DNA of 64,000 nucleotides from Mimachlamys varia (Eukaryota > Mollusca > Bivalvia > Pectinida > Pectinidae). Below the pieces are notes generated by a model. It did not search any database. It was not told where the DNA came from and saw only the letters and a program-made list of their open reading frames with translations. The stretch covers positions 46,317,058-46,381,057 of the forward strand of contig OX392532.1 in NCBI GenBank assembly GCA_947623455.1, written 5' to 3'. Shown in pieces: positions 3,009-64,000 of the stretch; the first letter of the stretch is position 1; the number at the start of each line of letters is the position of its first letter. A program made the translations under genes and the position numbers.

Positions 3009-3480
3009 AGCTCACCGGGCCTGAAGGGCCAAGTGAGCTTATGTGATGGTGCTGCGTCCGTCGTCCGTCCGTCCGTCGTTCAAAATACCAAAAGCCCTAC
3101 AAGCATGATATTTGGCTGAATGGTTTCTTGGATGAAGCCTGGCAAAGTTTGCAAAAAAGAAACGACCTTGACCTGTATTCAAGGTCACAAGGGTCAAATC
3201 TGTTAAAACCTTCAAACGACTTCTTCTGAAATACCAAAAGCCCTAGAAGCATGATATTTTGCTGACAGGTTCCTTGGATGAAGCATGACAAAGTTTGCGA
3301 CAAGAAATGACCTTGACCTATTTTCAAGGTCACAGGGGTCAAATCTGCTAAAACCTTCAAACGACTTCTTCTAAAATACCAAAAGCCCTGGAAGCATGAA
3401 ATTTGGCAGAAAGGTTCCTTGACAAAATTTGCAGAAAGAAATGACCTTGACTTATATTAAAGTCAAGAGAAGAGTTGCAC
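3009..3480. mobile_element. hairpin-headed dispersed repeat with about 145-bp monomers (copy 1)
   Basis: The element opens with a stem-loop: AGCTCAC (3009-3015) pairs with GTGAGCT (3033-3039), with an inner GGCC/GGCC pair. A CGTCCGTC-rich tract (3055-3079) follows, and then monomers marked by ATACCAAAAG at 3085, 3231 and 3376 (spacing 146 and 145). Each monomer carries a TGACCTTGA...TCAAGGTCA inverted repeat. The same architecture and monomer recur at 62529-64000. It codes for nothing visible. On the minus strand the hairpin is followed by AA, so the end reads CTAA, which would suit a Helitron-type 3' end. That class assignment is inference. Confidence 0.65.
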
Positions 3481-4215: not shown

Positions 4216-4308
4216 ATGACAGAACATGCTGTGTGCCTGTGGGTGAAGGCAGAGCCTTTCAGCTATGGTGCATTTCCCATAGCACCTCATCCCAGACTCA
4301 CGTTTAGT
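4216..4308 (+). CDS. TBCCD1: TBCCD1 coding exon 1 (start codon, residues 1-31)
   Basis: The ATG at 4216 has G at -3, and an in-frame TGA at 4183 closes the frame upstream, so this is the first possible start for this reading frame after that stop. The exon encodes MTEHAVCLWVKAEPF followed by a Gly/Pro-rich stretch and ends in a complete codon (AGT). The donor AGT|GTAAGTAT at 4309 matches the 5' splice consensus closely. LWVKAEPF just after the start is the family's N-terminal signature. Reading on into the intron hits a TAG about 14 codons later. A candidate 3' splice site (TTTCTGATTTTAG, ending 4149) suggests that the exon may begin at 4150 with a non-coding exon further upstream. Confidence 0.88.
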
Positions 4309-5700: not shown

Positions 5701-5762
5701 AATATCAAGAAAATCGTTATATATGCCAAAAATAAGGGACACTTGGGCTTTCCAAGGATAAA
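5701..5762 (+). CDS. TBCCD1: TBCCD1 coding exon 2
   Basis: This 62-base exon lies between a strong acceptor (GTTTTCTATTGCAG, ending 5700) and a strong donor (AAA|GTAAGTAT at 5763). It continues the exon 1 frame in phase 0 as NIKKIVIYAKNKG...GFPRI, and its last two bases AA are completed to AAT by the first T of exon 3. It matches the family region between the Gly/Pro-rich N-terminus and the WRHIAC block (compare YLRKISTYV and YPRL in the vertebrate protein, from memory). If the following intron were retained, the next codon would be AAG and then TAA, an immediate stop. Confidence 0.87.
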
Positions 5763-54333: not shown

Positions 54334-54396
54334 TTATTCGGTGTGGCGTCACATTGCCTGCAACAAACTGCATCTGACAGAAGACCTGGCCTGGAT
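54334..54396 (+). CDS. TBCCD1: TBCCD1 coding exon 3 (WRHIAC block)
   Basis: This 63-base exon starts immediately after the satellite. The acceptor TATGTTTCAG (ending 54333) is the tail of the last 23-bp satellite unit, with CACAG shortened to CAG. In the phase left by exon 2 it reads NYSVWRHIACNKLHLTEDLAW, the most conserved part of the N-terminal region. The exon ends in AT, and the donor GGAT|GTAAGTAAC at 54397 is also the first member of a 35-bp tandem repeat that copies this junction. Missing this donor would give ATG then TAA, an immediate stop. Confidence 0.9.
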
Positions 54397-55715
54397 GTAA
54401 GTAACACTTTACAGTTCCTAGACTGAGGGATGTAAGTAACACCTCACAGTTACTAGACTGAGGGATGTAAGTAAGGCCTCACAGTTCCTAGACTGAGGGA
54501 TGTCAGTAACACCTCACAGTTCCTATACTGAGGGATGTAAGTAACACCTCACAGTTCCTTGACTGAGGGATGTCAGTAACACCTCACAGTTTCTATACTG
54601 AGGGATGTAAGTAACACCTCACAGTTCCTAGACTGAGGGATGTAAGTAACACCTTACAGTTCCTAGACTGAGGGATGTAAGTAACACCTCACAGTTTCTA
54701 GGTTGAGGGATGTAAGTAACACCTCACAGTTCCTAGACTGAGGGATGTAAGTAACACCTCACAGTTCCTAGACTGAAGGATGTAAGTAACACCTTACAGT
54801 TCCTAGACTGAGGGATGTAAGTAACACCCCACAGTTCCTAGACTGATGGATGTAAGTAACACCTCACAGTTCCTTGGTTGAGGGATGTAAGTAACACCTC
54901 ACAGTTCCTAGGCTGAGGGATGTAAGTAACACCTCACAGTTCCTAGACGGAGGGATGTAAGTAACACCTCACAGTTCCTAGACTGAGGGATGTAAGTAAC
55001 ACCTCACAGTTCCTAGGCTGAGGGATGTAAGTAACACCTCACAGTTCCTAGACTGAGGGATGTAAGTAACACTTCACAGTTCCTAGACTGAGGGATGTAA
55101 GTAACACCTCACAGTTCCTAGACTGAGGGATGTAAGTAACACCTCACAGTTCCTAGACTGAGGGATGTAAGTAACACCCCACAGTTCCTAAGCTGAGGGA
55201 TGTAAGTAACACCTCACAGTTCCTAGACTGATGGATGTAGGTAACACTTCACAGTTCCTATACTGAGGGATGTAAGTAACACCTCACAGTTCCTAGACTG
55301 AGGGATGAAAGTAACACCTCACAGTTCCTATACTGAGGGATGAAAGTAACACCTCACAGTTCCTAGACTGAGGGATGTAAGTAACACCCCACAGTTCCTA
55401 GACTGAGGGATGTAAGTAACACCCCACAGTTCCTAGACTGAGGGATGTAAGTAACACCTCACAGTTCCTAGACTGAGGGATGTAAGTAACACCTCACAGT
55501 TTCTATACTGAGGGATGTAAGTAACACCTCACAGTTCCTAGACTGATGGATGTAGGTAACACTTCACAGTTCCTAAGCTGAGGGATGTAAGTAACACCTC
55601 ACAGTTCCTAGACTGAGGGATGTAAGTAACACCTCACAGTTCCTAGACTGAGGGATGTAAGTAACACCTCACAGTTCCTAGACTGAGGGATGTAAGTAAC
55701 ACCTCATAGTTCCTA
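54387..55715 (+). repeat. 35-bp tandem repeat copying the exon 3 donor, about 38 copies
   Basis: Units of 35 bp contain GGGATGTAAGTAACACCTCA, then CAGTTCCTAGACTGA. The first GTAAGTAAC (54397) is the donor of TBCCD1 exon 3, and the next is exactly 35 bp on (54432). Nearly every unit keeps GGAT|GTAAGTAAC, so intron 3 opens with dozens of strong donor look-alikes in sense orientation. Changes are point substitutions only (GTCAGT, GAAAGT and GTAGGT in a few units). Confidence 0.93.
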
Positions 55716-55817
55716 AACTGGCTCCAACCCCCCATAATTTGCCCATTTTTTCAGTTGAAAGCTATTGCAGCTTTAATTATCACGATTAGTGACACAGGGC
55801 CTTTGTACCTCTTGTTG
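55716..55817 (+). other. short unique spacer in TBCCD1 intron 3
   Basis: About 100 bases separate the 35-bp and 50-bp arrays. It contains TTTTTTCAG and CTATTGCAG, acceptor-like strings, but no open continuation of the TBCCD1 frame. Confidence 0.5.
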
Positions 55818-56426
55818 TAAATGTTTCTTGGGATGACAAGTAAATATGTAACACTGTATACCATGGTGTTTAGGTACTTGGGACAACAAGTAAATATGTA
55901 ACATTGTATACCATGGTGTTTAGGTACTTGGGACGACAGGTAAATATGTAACATTGTATACCATGGTGTTTAGGTACTTGGGACGACAGGTAAATATGTA
56001 ACATTGTATACCATGGTGTTTAGGTACTTGGGATGACAAGTAAATATGTAACATTGTATACCATGGTGTTTAGGTACTTGGGACGACAGGTAAATATGTA
56101 ACATTGTATACCATGGTGTTTAGGTACTTGGGACGACAGGTAAATATGTAACATTGTATACCATGGTGTTTAGGTACTTGGGATGACAAGTAAATATGTA
56201 ACATTGTATACCATGGTGTTTAGGTACTTGGGACGACAGGTAAATATGTAACATTGTATACCATGGTGTTTAGGTACTTGGGACGACAGGTAAATATGTA
56301 ACATTGTATACCATGGTGTTTAGGTACTTGGGACGACAGGTAAATATGTAACATTGTATACCATGGTGTTTAGGTACTTGGGACGTCAGGTAAATATGTA
56401 ACATTGTATGCCATGGTGTTTAGGTA
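55818..56426 (+). repeat. 50-bp tandem repeat copying the exon 4 acceptor, 12 copies
   Basis: Units of exactly 50 bp contain ATGTAACATTGTATACCATG, GTGTTTAG, GTACTTGGGAC and GACAGGTAAAT. TTTAG ends at 55873 and every 50 bp after that to 56423, the real acceptor of exon 4. The repeat crosses the splice junction by six bases (GTACTT). Each unit also holds CAG|GTAAAT, a donor look-alike 16 bases after the TTTAG. Confidence 0.93.
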
Positions 56427-56524
56427 CTTCTCCACATGCCACCTGTTTTGTGAAGACCTGTCTGCTATGGAGAGAATTGAAAGGGACCAGGAAATGGCTG
56501 CCTGTTCTAGTCAACCAGACCGAG
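56424..56524 (+). CDS. TBCCD1: TBCCD1 coding exon 4
   Basis: The acceptor GGTGTTTAG (ending 56423) lies in the last unit of a 50-bp tandem repeat, and the exon's first six bases GTACTT are still shared with the repeat. G completes the split codon from exon 3 to ATG, then the frame runs YFSTCHLFCEDLSAMERIER...QPDR and ends with one base (phase 1) before a donor GAG|GTAGGC at 56525. The junction LAW-MYF corresponds to LAWLYF in vertebrate TBCCD1. Similarity fades after that, as expected for a variable linker. The donor is less strong than the others. No convincing next exon was found downstream in the window. Confidence 0.83.
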
Positions 56525-56626: not shown

Positions 56627-57030
56627 GATCCCCCAGTCCTGACCACTCTATGAAGTAGGTATGGTTGTCTGGAGATCCCCCAGCCCTGACCACTCTATGA
56701 AGTAGGTATGATTGTCTGTCGATCCCCCAGTCCTGACCACTCTATGAAGTAGGTATGGTTGTCTGGAGATCCCCCAGTCCTGACCACTCTATGAAGTAGG
56801 TATGGTTGTCTGTCGATCCCCCAGTCCTGACCACTCTATGAAGTAGGTATGGTTGTCTGTCGATCCCCCAGTCCTGACCACTCTCTGAAGTAGGTATGGT
56901 TGTCTGTCGATCCCCCAGTCCTGACCACTCTATGAAGTAGGTATGGTTGTCTGTCGATCCCCCAGCCCTGACCACTCTATGAAGTAGGTATGGTTGTCTG
57001 GAGATCCCCCAGTCCTGACCACTCTATTTG
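56627..57030. repeat. 47-bp minisatellite, about 8.6 copies
   Basis: GATCCCCCAGTCCTGACCAC recurs every 47 bp (56627, 56674 and on), followed by TCTATGAAGTAGGTATGGTT and GTCTGTC or GTCTGGA. Minus-strand open frames over it are periodic artefacts. Confidence 0.9.
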
Positions 57031-59018: not shown

Positions 59019-59604
59019 AAGCTCTACACCTGATTACATTTTGGTGATCATTAGTCAACGTTAAAAGGTCAAAGGTCACTTGTCTAATTTGGAAATAACC
59101 CTTGGACAGATTTGGTTCATATTCACACCATAGCATCACATGGTGAAGGTCTACACCTGATTGAATATTGGTGGTCATTGGTCAAGATAAAAGTCAAAGG
59201 TCACCATTGACCATTTGGAAATAAAAAGCTTGTGTACGAGTTATCTCACACAATCAGTTCTACACCTGATTAGATTTTGGTAGTTGTTAGTCAAAAGTAA
59301 AGGTCAGAAGTAACCCTTGTCCACTTTTGGAATGAAAAACTTGCACACGAGTTTTCATGAAACCTGGACAGATTTAGTAACTGTAAACATACTTCATTTG
59401 GCGCAATCAAATTTAAGTGCATTGTCATATTTTGGATGTTAGTGCACTTCTGAATTCACACATCCATGATAAGTACTACAACTATAAGCAGCATATAAAA
59501 TCTCTAATTAGCGCAATCATATTTTACAATACTTTCAACGCAAAAAACCCTGCTGAAATAATTTTACTGCGAAAAATAGGTATGTTTACAGTATGTTCAC
59601 ACCA
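59019..59604. repeat. dispersed-repeat block with TACACCTGATT modules and a GCGCAATCA module
   Basis: TACACCTGATT occurs three times (about 59026, 59152, 59262), each followed by a TTTTGGT/ATTGGTGGTCATT-like stretch and AAAGGTCA-type motifs, indicating a diverged tandem of roughly 110-130 bp. From about 59380, GGCGCAATCAAATTTAAGTG and TTAGCGCAATCATATTTTAC belong to another common-looking repeat. AGGTCAAAGGTCA at 59066-59078 is a perfect AGGTCA direct repeat with one-base spacing. Confidence 0.55.
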
Positions 59605-61050
59605 TAACATCTGTGGTCATCGGTCAGCGTTAAAGGTCATAACATCTGTGGTCATCGGTCAGCGTTAAAGGTCATATGTTCTGTGGTCATCGGTCAGCGT
59701 TAAAGGTCATAACATCTGTGGTCATCGGTCAGCGTTAAAGGTCATATGTTCTGTGTTCATCGGTCAGCGTTAAAGGTCATATGTTCGGTGGTCATCGGTC
59801 AGCGTTAAAGGTCATACGTTCTGTGGTCATCGGTCAGCGTTAAAGGTCATAACATCTGTGGTCATCAGTCAGCGTTAAAGGTCATATGTTCTGTGGTCAT
59901 TGGTCAGCGTTAAAGGTCATATGTCCTGTGGTCATCAGTCAGCGTTAAAGGTCATATGTTCTGTGGTCATCGGTCAGCGTTAAAGGTCATATGTTCTGTG
60001 TTCATCGGTCAGCGTTAAAGGTCATATGTTCGGTGGTCATCGGTCAGCGTTAAAGGTCATACGTTCGGTGGTCATTGGTCAGCGTTAGAGGTCATATGTT
60101 TGGTGGTCATCGGTCAGTGTTAAAGGTCATATGTTTGGTGGTCAACGGTCCGCATTAAAGGTCATATATTCTGTGGTCATCGGTCAGCGTTAAAGGTCAT
60201 ATGTTCTGTGGTCATTGGTCAGCGTTAAAGGTCATATGTCCTGTGGTCATCGGTCAGCGTTAAAGGTCATACGTTCGGTGGTCATCGGTTTTAGTTAAAG
60301 GTCAAATGTTTGGTGGTCATCGGTTAGCGTTAAAAATCATATGTTCTGTGGTCATCGTTCAGCGTTAAAGGTCATATGTTCTGTGGTCATCGGTCAGCGT
60401 TAAAGGTCATATGTTTGGTGGTCATTGGTCAGCGTTAAAGGTCTTATGTTCTGTGGTCATCGGTCAGCGTTAAAGGTCATATGGTGAAGGTCTACACCTG
60501 ATTGAATATTGGTGGTCATTGGTCAAGATAAAAGTCAAAGGTCACCATTGACCATTTGGAAATAAAAAGCTTGTGTACGAGTTATCTCACACAATCAGTT
60601 CTACACCTGATTAGATTTTGGTAGTTGTTGGTCAAAAGTAAAGGTCAGAAGTAACCCTTGTCCACTTTTGGAATGAAAAACTTGCACACGAGTTTTCATG
60701 AAACCTGGACAGATTTAGTAACTGTAAACATACTTCATTTGGCGCAATCAAATTTAAGTGCATTGTCATATTTTGGATGTTAGTGCACTTCTGAATTCAC
60801 ACATCCATGATAAGTACTACAACTATAAGCAGCATATAAAATCTCTAATTAGCGCAATCATATTTTACAATACTTTCAACGCAAAAAACCCTGCTGAAAT
60901 AATTTTACTGCGAAAAATAGGTATGTTTACAGTATGTTCACACCATAACATCTGTGGTCATCGGTCAGCGTTAAAGGTCATAACATCTGTGGTCATCGGT
61001 CAGCGTTAAAGGTCATATGTTCTGTGGTCATCGGTCAGCGTTAAAGGTCA
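59140..61050. repeat. 1,341-bp direct duplication (59140-59709 repeated at 60481-61050)
   Basis: ATGGTGAAGGTCTACACC at 59140 and 60481 starts two copies that run about 570 bp with one difference seen (GTTGTTAGTC versus GTTGTTGGTC). Each copy leads into the 35-bp GGTCA array, so the repeat unit is the dispersed block plus array. The identical 83-codon open frames at 59417 and 60758 are carried along by the duplication and have no coding signature. Confidence 0.85.
59605..60480. repeat. 35-bp GGTCA-rich minisatellite, left part (about 25 copies)
   Basis: The unit contains TGTGGTCATCGGTCAGCGTT, then AAAGGTCATATGTTC. Variant classes (AACATC, ATGTTC, ACGTTC, ATGTTT) alternate. Every unit holds AAAGGTCA plus two GGTCA pentamers. 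Confidence 0.9.
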
Positions 61051-62528: not shown

Positions 62529-64000
62529 TAGGTCATCTGACCCGAAGGGTCAAGATGACCTATTGCCATCATGCTTCGTCCGTCGTCGTGCGCCGTCCGC
62601 CGTCCACCGTCCGTAAACTTTTCCTTTAACAATCTTCTTCTTAGTAACCAAAAGGCTCTAGGTGCTGATATTTGGCCAGTAGGCACCTGGGATTGAGTGC
62701 TACAAAGTTTCCTCATTTCAATGACCTTGACCTGTTTTTAAGGTCACAGGGGTCAAATATGTAAAAACCTTTAACAATCTTCTTCTCAGTAACCAAAAGG
62801 TCTAGGGTAATGATATTTGGCCAGTAGGCACCTGGGATAGAGTGCTACAAAGTTTCCTCATATCGATGACCTTGACTAACTTTCAAGGTCACAGGGGCCA
62901 AAAAGGTCAAAATCTTTGAACGACTTCTTCTGAATAACCAAAAGGCCCAGAGACCTAATATTGGGCCTGTGGCATGCTGGGATAAAGGGCTACCAAGTTT
63001 GTTCAAACAAATGACCTTGACCTTCATTCAAGGTCACAGGGGCCAAAAAGGTCAAAATCTTTGAACGACTTCTTTTGAATAACCAAAAGGCCCAGAGACC
63101 TGATATTGGGCCTGTGGCATGCTGGGATAAAGGGTTACCAAGTTTGTTCAAACAAATGACCTTGACCTTCATTCAAGGTCACAGGGGCCGAAAAGGTCAA
63201 AATCTTTGTAAACAACTTCTTCTGAATAACCAAAAGGCCCAGAGACCTGATATTGGTCCTGTGTTATGCTGAGATAAAGGGCTACCAAGTTTGTTCAAAG
63301 AAATGACCTTGACCTTCATTCAAGGTCACAGGGGACAAAACGGTCATAATTTTTAAACGACTTCTTCTGAATAACCAAAAGGCCCAGAGACCTAATATTG
63401 GGCCTGTGGCATGCTGGGATAAAGGGCTACCAAGTTTGTTCAAACAAATGACCTTGACCTTCATTCAAGGTCACAGGGGCCAAAAAGGTCAAAATCTTTG
63501 AACGACTTCTTCTGATTAACCAAAAGGCCCAGAGACCTAATATTGGGCCTGTGGCATGCTGGGATAAAGGGCTACCAAGTTTGTTCAAACAAATGACCCT
63601 GACATTCATTCAAGGTCACAGAGGCCAAAAAGGTCAAAATCTTTGAACGACTTCTTTTGAATAACCAAAAGGCCCAGAGACCTGATATTGGGCCTGTGGC
63701 ATGCTGGGATAAAGGGTTACCAAGTTTGTTTAAAGAAATGACCTTGACCTTCATTCAAGGTCACAGGGGCCGAAAAGGTCAAAATCTTTTTAAACAACTT
63801 CTTCTGAATAACCAAAAGGCCCAGAGACCTGATATTGGTCCTGTGTTATGCTGAGATAAAGGGCTACCAAGTTTGTTCAAAGAAATGACCTTGACCTTCA
63901 TTCAAGGTCACAGGGGATAAAACGGTCATAATTTTTAAACGACTTCTTCTGAATAACCAAAAGGCACAGAGACCTAATATTGGGCCTGTGGCATGCTGGG
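62529..64000. mobile_element. hairpin-headed repeat with a 145-bp monomer array (copy 3, continues past window)
   Basis: The stem TAGGTCATC (62529-62537) / GATGACCTA (62554-62562) encloses a GACCC/GGGTC inner stem. A CGTCCGTCGTCGTGCGCCGTCC tract and then about ten monomers of 145-146 bp follow to the window end. Each has TAACCAAAAGG, a TGACCTTGA...TCAAGGTCA inverted repeat and AACGACTTCTTCT. Four-monomer blocks recur at 582 bp (63075-63272 matches 63657-63854 closely). The short 60-65-codon frames repeated on both strands are artefacts. Confidence 0.75.

Follow-up and report, generated by a model that had tools for sequence, protein, structure and literature searches.

The window analysed here is a stretch of 64,000 nucleotides from the bivalve Mimachlamys varia (C6:46317058-46381057 of a 975-Mb assembly). 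Positions above 64000 are extended coordinates, in which the window numbering is continued into 60 kb of downstream DNA. The gene at this locus is TBCCD1, an ordinary bivalve gene, for which 17 exons with 542 amino acids and no stop have been joined so far. Four exons lie in the window, all on the + strand, as are the arrays described below. Exon 1 (4216-4308) opens with the start codon at 4216, and exon 2 (5701-5762) lies more than 60 nt from the nearest array on either side. Exon 3 (54334-54396, 63 nt) is bordered by arrays on both sides. Exon 4 (56424-56524) has its donor, GAG/GTAGGCC (the slash marks the junction), outside any array; a 47-bp array begins at 56627. The gene model has two weak spots. 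Exon 5 (67034-67142, extended) has a very weak GT donor with a poor score, and exon 6 (71488-71557, extended; L009) seems to need a GC donor, AATAAG/GCTAGT.

The protein of exons 1-4 alone matched no Pfam family, and the one match in a PDB search (E 0.69) was taken as chance. Sixteen joined TBCCD1 exons matched the Pfam TBCC family at 4.3e-32; a CAP_C match of the joined exons was weak and under the Pfam cut-off. The TBCC domain-containing protein 1 of Mytilus, Pinctada and Mya was among the 120 protein matches listed of 395. Exons 1-17 were 91.1% identical to the ortholog P0003, a 567-aa frame, over 542 residues with zero gaps. As the contigs that carry P0003 do not exceed 2.5 kb, its source would be spliced RNA or an intronless copy. 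The gap-free alignment places exon 3 at 54334-54396 and exon 4 at 56424-56524, and intron 3 spans 54397-56423. It also bears out the original prediction that the real splice sites of this intron are the outermost copies of two arrays, the first donor and the last acceptor.

The donor array of intron 3 (54393-55720) is made of a 35-bp unit, which comprises four exonic nucleotides (GGAT) and 31 intronic ones. TRF gave 37.9 copies with 93% matches and we counted 38 units, in agreement with the earlier claim of about 38 donor copies starting at the exon 3 junction. The true donor, after 54396, belongs to the first unit. The donor motif reads GATGTAAGTAA in 32 units, GTCAGT in two, GTAGGT in two and GAAAGT in two, and the GT is kept in 36 of the 38. 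U1 pairing was -7.0 in 32 of the 38 copies, the first included.

The acceptor array (55827-56429; TRF, 12.1 copies, 97% matches) is made of a 50-bp unit that holds GTGTTTAG/GTACTT, with six exonic and 44 intronic nucleotides. The 14-mer GTGTTTAGGTACTT occurs 12 times in 50-bp steps from 55866 to 56416 and is absent elsewhere on the + strand of the window. With these identical 14-mers and the TRF count, the 12 acceptor copies that had been claimed at 50-bp intervals up to exon 4 were recovered. The true acceptor, before 56424, is the last copy. The 50-bp units also bear a donor-like motif, CAG/GTAAAT in eight of the 12 and CAA/GTAAAT in the other four. Recursive splicing by way of the AG/GT in this unit was considered as a possibility. 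In both arrays the edge copies were somewhat more divergent than the average inner copy, with 2 and 4 differences against 1.2 in one array and 3 and 2 against 0.6 in the other.

The exonic bases of the two units, GGAT and GTACTT, encode parts of W72, M73, Y74 and F75. W72 and Y74 are invariant across nine aligned proteins, namely the window protein, four bivalves, three further records and a salamander. When the assembly was searched with the arrays, 17 of 17 matches to the 35-bp array and two of two to the 50-bp array fell at the TBCCD1 locus, the counts being lower bounds. A dispersed satellite family was rejected as the source of the arrays, as the 35- and 50-bp units matched nowhere else in this search, which skips very common words. 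When nine unit strings were compared pairwise, the similarity of the 35- and 50-bp units stayed short of P < 0.05. Just two pairs fell below this value, 23 with 35 bp (P = 0.032) and 27 with 50 bp (P = 0.04), both unadjusted and treated as chance.

Scoring of the splice sites in all units had been proposed as a check. U1 pairing was equal in 32 of the 38 donors, and the neighbouring inner sites matched the true ones in matrix score: 8.6 for the second donor and 8.6 for the true donor, and 0.6 for the next inner acceptor and 0.2 for the true acceptor. Since the inner sites score as the true sites do, the choice of sites in intron 3 would have to depend on position and not on weakness of the inner copies. 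Reading past the first donor to the second runs at once into ATG-TAA, as had been stated for the inner donors, and inner donors of intron 3 would thus give no in-frame isoforms of the IFI6 kind. The parallel statement for the acceptors, a stop after eight codons, holds for nine of the 11 inner acceptors, but two stop after three. Before 85102 (extended), use of the next inner acceptor would lengthen the message by 60 nt, in frame and free of stops; given this case, nonsense-mediated decay (NMD) would not be a general outcome of mis-splicing across the TBCCD1 arrays.

It had also been suggested that the arrays keep the splice motif nearly intact. This is true of the motif itself, with 32 of 38 perfect donors and 12 of 12 acceptors, but the remainder of the unit is not clearly less well kept. 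Permutation of unit columns gave P = 0.38 for the GTAAGT columns, P = 0.24 for the acceptor columns and P = 0.025 for a wider set of 13 donor columns, so that extra conservation of the splice motifs, as expected under selection, was not clearly found. The motifs are therefore more likely to be intact because the arrays are young than through selection.

Intron 3 is not the only part of the gene that is built in this way. Arrays make up 88% of the window, and many arrays of TBCCD1 lie away from junctions. Most of intron 2 is filled by a 23-bp array (7200-54332; 47 kb, about 2065 copies), which contains 1638 exact copies of the acceptor-like TTTCACAG. Its last copy is the acceptor of exon 3, GTTTCAG/TTATTC (54333/54334), which the original prediction had missed. 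A 44-bp array without a strong sense-strand donor starts 16 nt into intron 1. Among the 33 arrays of TBCCD1, a strong donor was present on the sense strand in 10 (six distinct units) and on the antisense strand in one.

We then counted junctions in 16 exons (exon 6 was excluded), which gave 16 donors and 15 acceptors. At five donors the array begins within the exon (-4, -13, -2, -27 and -45), and at four more it starts at +1, +4, +11 and +16. At exon 5 the start is about +27 from the revised donor. On the acceptor side, two arrays end within the exon (-6 and -27) and one at +1 (exon 3); the remaining ones end at +6, +14, +18 and beyond. With the +1 cases counted, donors and acceptors within TBCCD1 did not differ significantly (6/16 versus 3/15, P = 0.43). 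The units at several of these junctions carry longer pieces of exon, with 13 exonic nt at the donor after 77568, 27 at the acceptor before 85102, 27 at the donor after 93285 and 45 at the donor after 97617 (all extended coordinates).

Some further repeats were observed along the gene. The acceptor array whose 60-bp units hold 27 exonic nt each lies at 80653-85128 (extended; L010-L011, C6:46397710-46402185). The 31/38-bp donor-derived arrays after exon 13 (93259-93530, extended; L011) have a second copy at 89915-90323, some 3 kb further upstream and within an earlier intron, so that here a junction array has been duplicated locally. A segment of about 480 bp, as judged by eye, is repeated at about 59140-59620 and 60480-60960, inside the region of a 35-bp GGTCATCGGTCAGCGTTAAA array. 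Units of 145 bp with ACCTTGACCT..AAGGTCA were found at 62634-64000 (to 66253 extended), at 3082-3421 and at about 88916 (extended). These are alike by eye and probably form a dispersed tandem family.

Arrays across junctions were also found in other genes. We surveyed the best 30 of 74 myosin head matches and 60 hand-picked kinesin matches of 131, and a script with weight matrices assigned 78 donors and 83 acceptors to these 90 exons, the rest being under the score limit. Junction-spanning arrays were present at 11 of the 78 donors and two of the 83 acceptors (Fisher test, P = 0.008). A further 20 of the remaining 44 myosin matches, surveyed on the donor side only, gave one array in 15 accepted donors. 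After L097 was removed from the donor total as ambiguous, the survey stood at 11 of 93 donors (95% range 6-20%) versus two of 83 acceptors (P = 0.02). Examples have units of 73, 68 and 61 bp that carry 21-45 nt of exon. The kinesin matches left out of the sample include a duplicated cluster at 8 Mb of C10, where a kinesin gene is present in seemingly at least four copies with equal match scores and lengths (G000:C10:7.99-8.95 Mb), and two apparently intronless copies. The latter are near-complete motor matches on small contigs (G000:C33:9806-10723 and G000:C60:3089-4021), of which the one on C33 has two in-frame TAG codons; they are possibly contaminants, e.g. from a protist, or retrocopies.

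In a separate 20-mer test, which picked out a partly different set of junctions, nearby copies were found at 10 of 78 donors and two of 83 acceptors. Against 20% of control positions, the donor junctions were not more repetitive than the adjoining intron in this test; for acceptors, the value for nearby intron positions was 8%. The last 75 exon bases had 2.5-3.2 times the density of array starts found in the intron, with P = 0.03 when compared with +30 to +200 and P = 0.003 when compared with +30 to +450. Because nine of the 11 donor arrays are from kinesin matches (the other two are from myosin) and some of the exons belong to one gene, we regard this as moderate evidence that arrays begin at donors.

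Tandem splice-site strings were also counted over the whole assembly. Triples of AGGTAAGT with 28-58 bp spacing gave 16,397 matches (8199 + 8198), 9- to 20-fold above four strings of equal composition without GTAAG (TGAATGGA, 875; TGGAATGA, 1683; AAGTGGAT, 842; TAGGTGAA, 1737). The scrambled octamer AGTAAGGT gave 8010 triples but is a poor control, as it contains the donor core GTAAG. Single copies of AGGTAAGT numbered 74,235 against 44,596 for its reverse, and this 1.7-fold excess means that abundance does not explain the excess of triples over TGAATGGA. For the acceptor pattern TTTNCAGG, 12,501 matches were obtained versus 6850 for its reverse (1.8-fold). Among the matches listed, the donor triple fell at 12 distinct places over the opening 5.5 Mb of C1, TGAATGGA at about 10 over roughly 85 Mb, AAGTGGAT at three over 31 Mb and AGTAAGGT at about 11 over 9.9 Mb. 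With about 10 places over 5.9 Mb, the acceptor pattern was roughly as common as the donor one. As this pattern has only seven fixed bases and the places of its reverse were not listed, the places alone show no donor bias; it is the ratio to the reversed string that shows it in part. A rough figure of about two thousand donor arrays in the genome was extrapolated from the places among the matches listed.

The original prediction held that no intron bounded at both ends by amplified splice junctions had been described. Tandem repeats of boundaries have in fact been published. The minisatellite of human IFI6 consists of 26 copies of 12 bp and is known from the donor side only. It supplies multiple donors to the gene, also known as 6-16 or G1P3 (PMC4526556; Turri et al. 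1995 as cited there). The 'mirages' of amphioxus are tandem repeats of intron-exon boundaries, 5′ and 3′, reported in Adh3, the globins BflGb6 and BflGb9, troponin C and PGBD5, the last two in PMC3902484 (PMC3087553, PMC3902484). They have splice signals in many repeats, and their edge copies escape homogenisation (PMC3087553, PMC3902484). Human duplicated genes have internal tandem repeats at exon-intron boundaries, about four copies of 30 bp on average, where minisatellite expansion alters gene structure and is linked to new introns (PMC2812944). No intron that bears such arrays at both of its ends came up in our searches of openly licensed papers.

Intron 3 resembles the amphioxus cases in having tandem, minisatellite-like units (35 bp × 37.9 and 50 bp × 12.1) that cross the exon-intron boundary, with 4 and 6 exonic nt here and up to 45 elsewhere in the gene. 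Mirages are further marked by undisturbed splicing of the normal mRNA and by copy-number polymorphism or somatic instability; here the ortholog P0003 agrees with the outermost sites, and the copy numbers come from one assembly. The edge copies deviate in both, here somewhat more than the average inner copies. It differs from them in its bivalve host, in having up to 38 donor copies and in being affected at both ends. Several junctions of one gene are involved here, together with other genes, whereas the amphioxus reports, as far as available, name a handful of genes. The amphioxus mirages have been tested by RT-PCR; the Mimachlamys arrays were analysed as genomic sequence. As in IFI6, tandem units at the exon end offer donors (predicted ones here), 32 of 38 with a perfect GTAAGT. 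The inner donors of IFI6 are used and encode isoforms, whereas the first inner donor of intron 3 would give a stop. We have filed the intron 3 arrays as mirages of a further phylum, on a larger scale than in the amphioxus cases in these sources. Their scale, their presence at both ends of one intron and an apparent donor bias seem to be new.

We consider it highly probable that intron 3 is bounded by two independent mirage-type minisatellites, each duplicated from the boundary, then expanded, and tolerated as intronic sequence. A short segment across the exon-intron boundary would have been duplicated in tandem, separately at the donor (4 exonic and 31 intronic nt) and at the acceptor (6 exonic and 44 intronic nt), and the copies would have expanded by slippage or unequal exchange. 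The original junction would stay at the outer edge, the only place where a splice site is joined to a whole exon, and the inner copies would be intronic and removed with the intron. Tolerance would come from a positional choice of sites, by exon definition or because the donor transcribed first is served first. The process appears to be common in the genome, above all at donors. Because the units carry coding bases, 13-45 exonic nt at other junctions, we infer that the junction was copied into the intron and not the reverse. At exons 3 and 4 the units reach just 4 and 6 nt into the exon, and the case for seeding from the junction thus rests partly on the other junctions. When duplicated donors compete, the intron-proximal one is often preferred. 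Heavy mis-splicing would therefore be predicted, which counts against the model, as does the 20-mer test, where donor junctions were no richer in repeats than the adjoining intron.

As introns here consist mostly of tandem repeats, some arrays might land against exons by chance. The high array content of the window, the many arrays of TBCCD1 away from junctions and the 20-mer test, in which copies at donor windows were no commoner than at nearby intron windows, are all consistent with this. We nevertheless think it quite unlikely, since exon sequence lies inside the units at several junctions, array starts are denser in the last 75 exon bases, and triples of AGGTAAGT are far above strings without GTAAG. 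That an intron is being gained, through tandem duplication of an exonic AG/GT segment as proposed for the amphioxus mirages (PMC3087553), seems to us very improbable. The 35- and 50-bp units do each carry a donor-like and an acceptor-like motif (partly judged by eye), but one duplication predicts the same unit at both ends, and the two units differ.

The copies might also be functional decoys under selection, which would tune TBCCD1 output through NMD or hold extra U1 snRNP on a very long transcript (telescripting). Full U1 pairing in 32 of 38 copies, the early stops upon inner use at exons 3 and 4 and the genome-wide over-representation of tandem donor consensus would fit such a role. Nonetheless, it appears improbable: the motif columns are not clearly better kept in the permutations, inner acceptor use before 85102 would keep the frame and meet no stop, and arrays that lack a strong sense donor (44, 27 and 20 bp) are equally prominent in TBCCD1.

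The duplication model alone does not explain why donors are favoured. The bias might result from tolerance, as the true donor is transcribed first while in an acceptor array a wrong copy precedes the true one, or from instability at donors. That more arrays start at donors than in plain intron would not follow from tolerance alone. Tentatively, and with some doubt on our own part, we suggest that tandem duplication in this bivalve lineage is seeded preferentially at 5′ splice sites. About one donor in eight would then lie in its own array, with maybe some two thousand arrays in all; the cause would be transcription- or U1-linked DNA instability at donors, survivable through positional choice.

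Such introns are natural competition experiments on splice-site choice, with dozens of equal donors of which the outermost is apparently used. If RNA confirms this, it would follow that a choice between many equal sites can be made by position alone. The arrays also extend a little-known curiosity of amphioxus to a second phylum. Should the donor bias hold up when all junctions are counted, it would indicate that a mutational or selective process works on 5′ splice sites genome-wide, and it would be a warning for gene annotation and for studies of intron evolution in molluscs.
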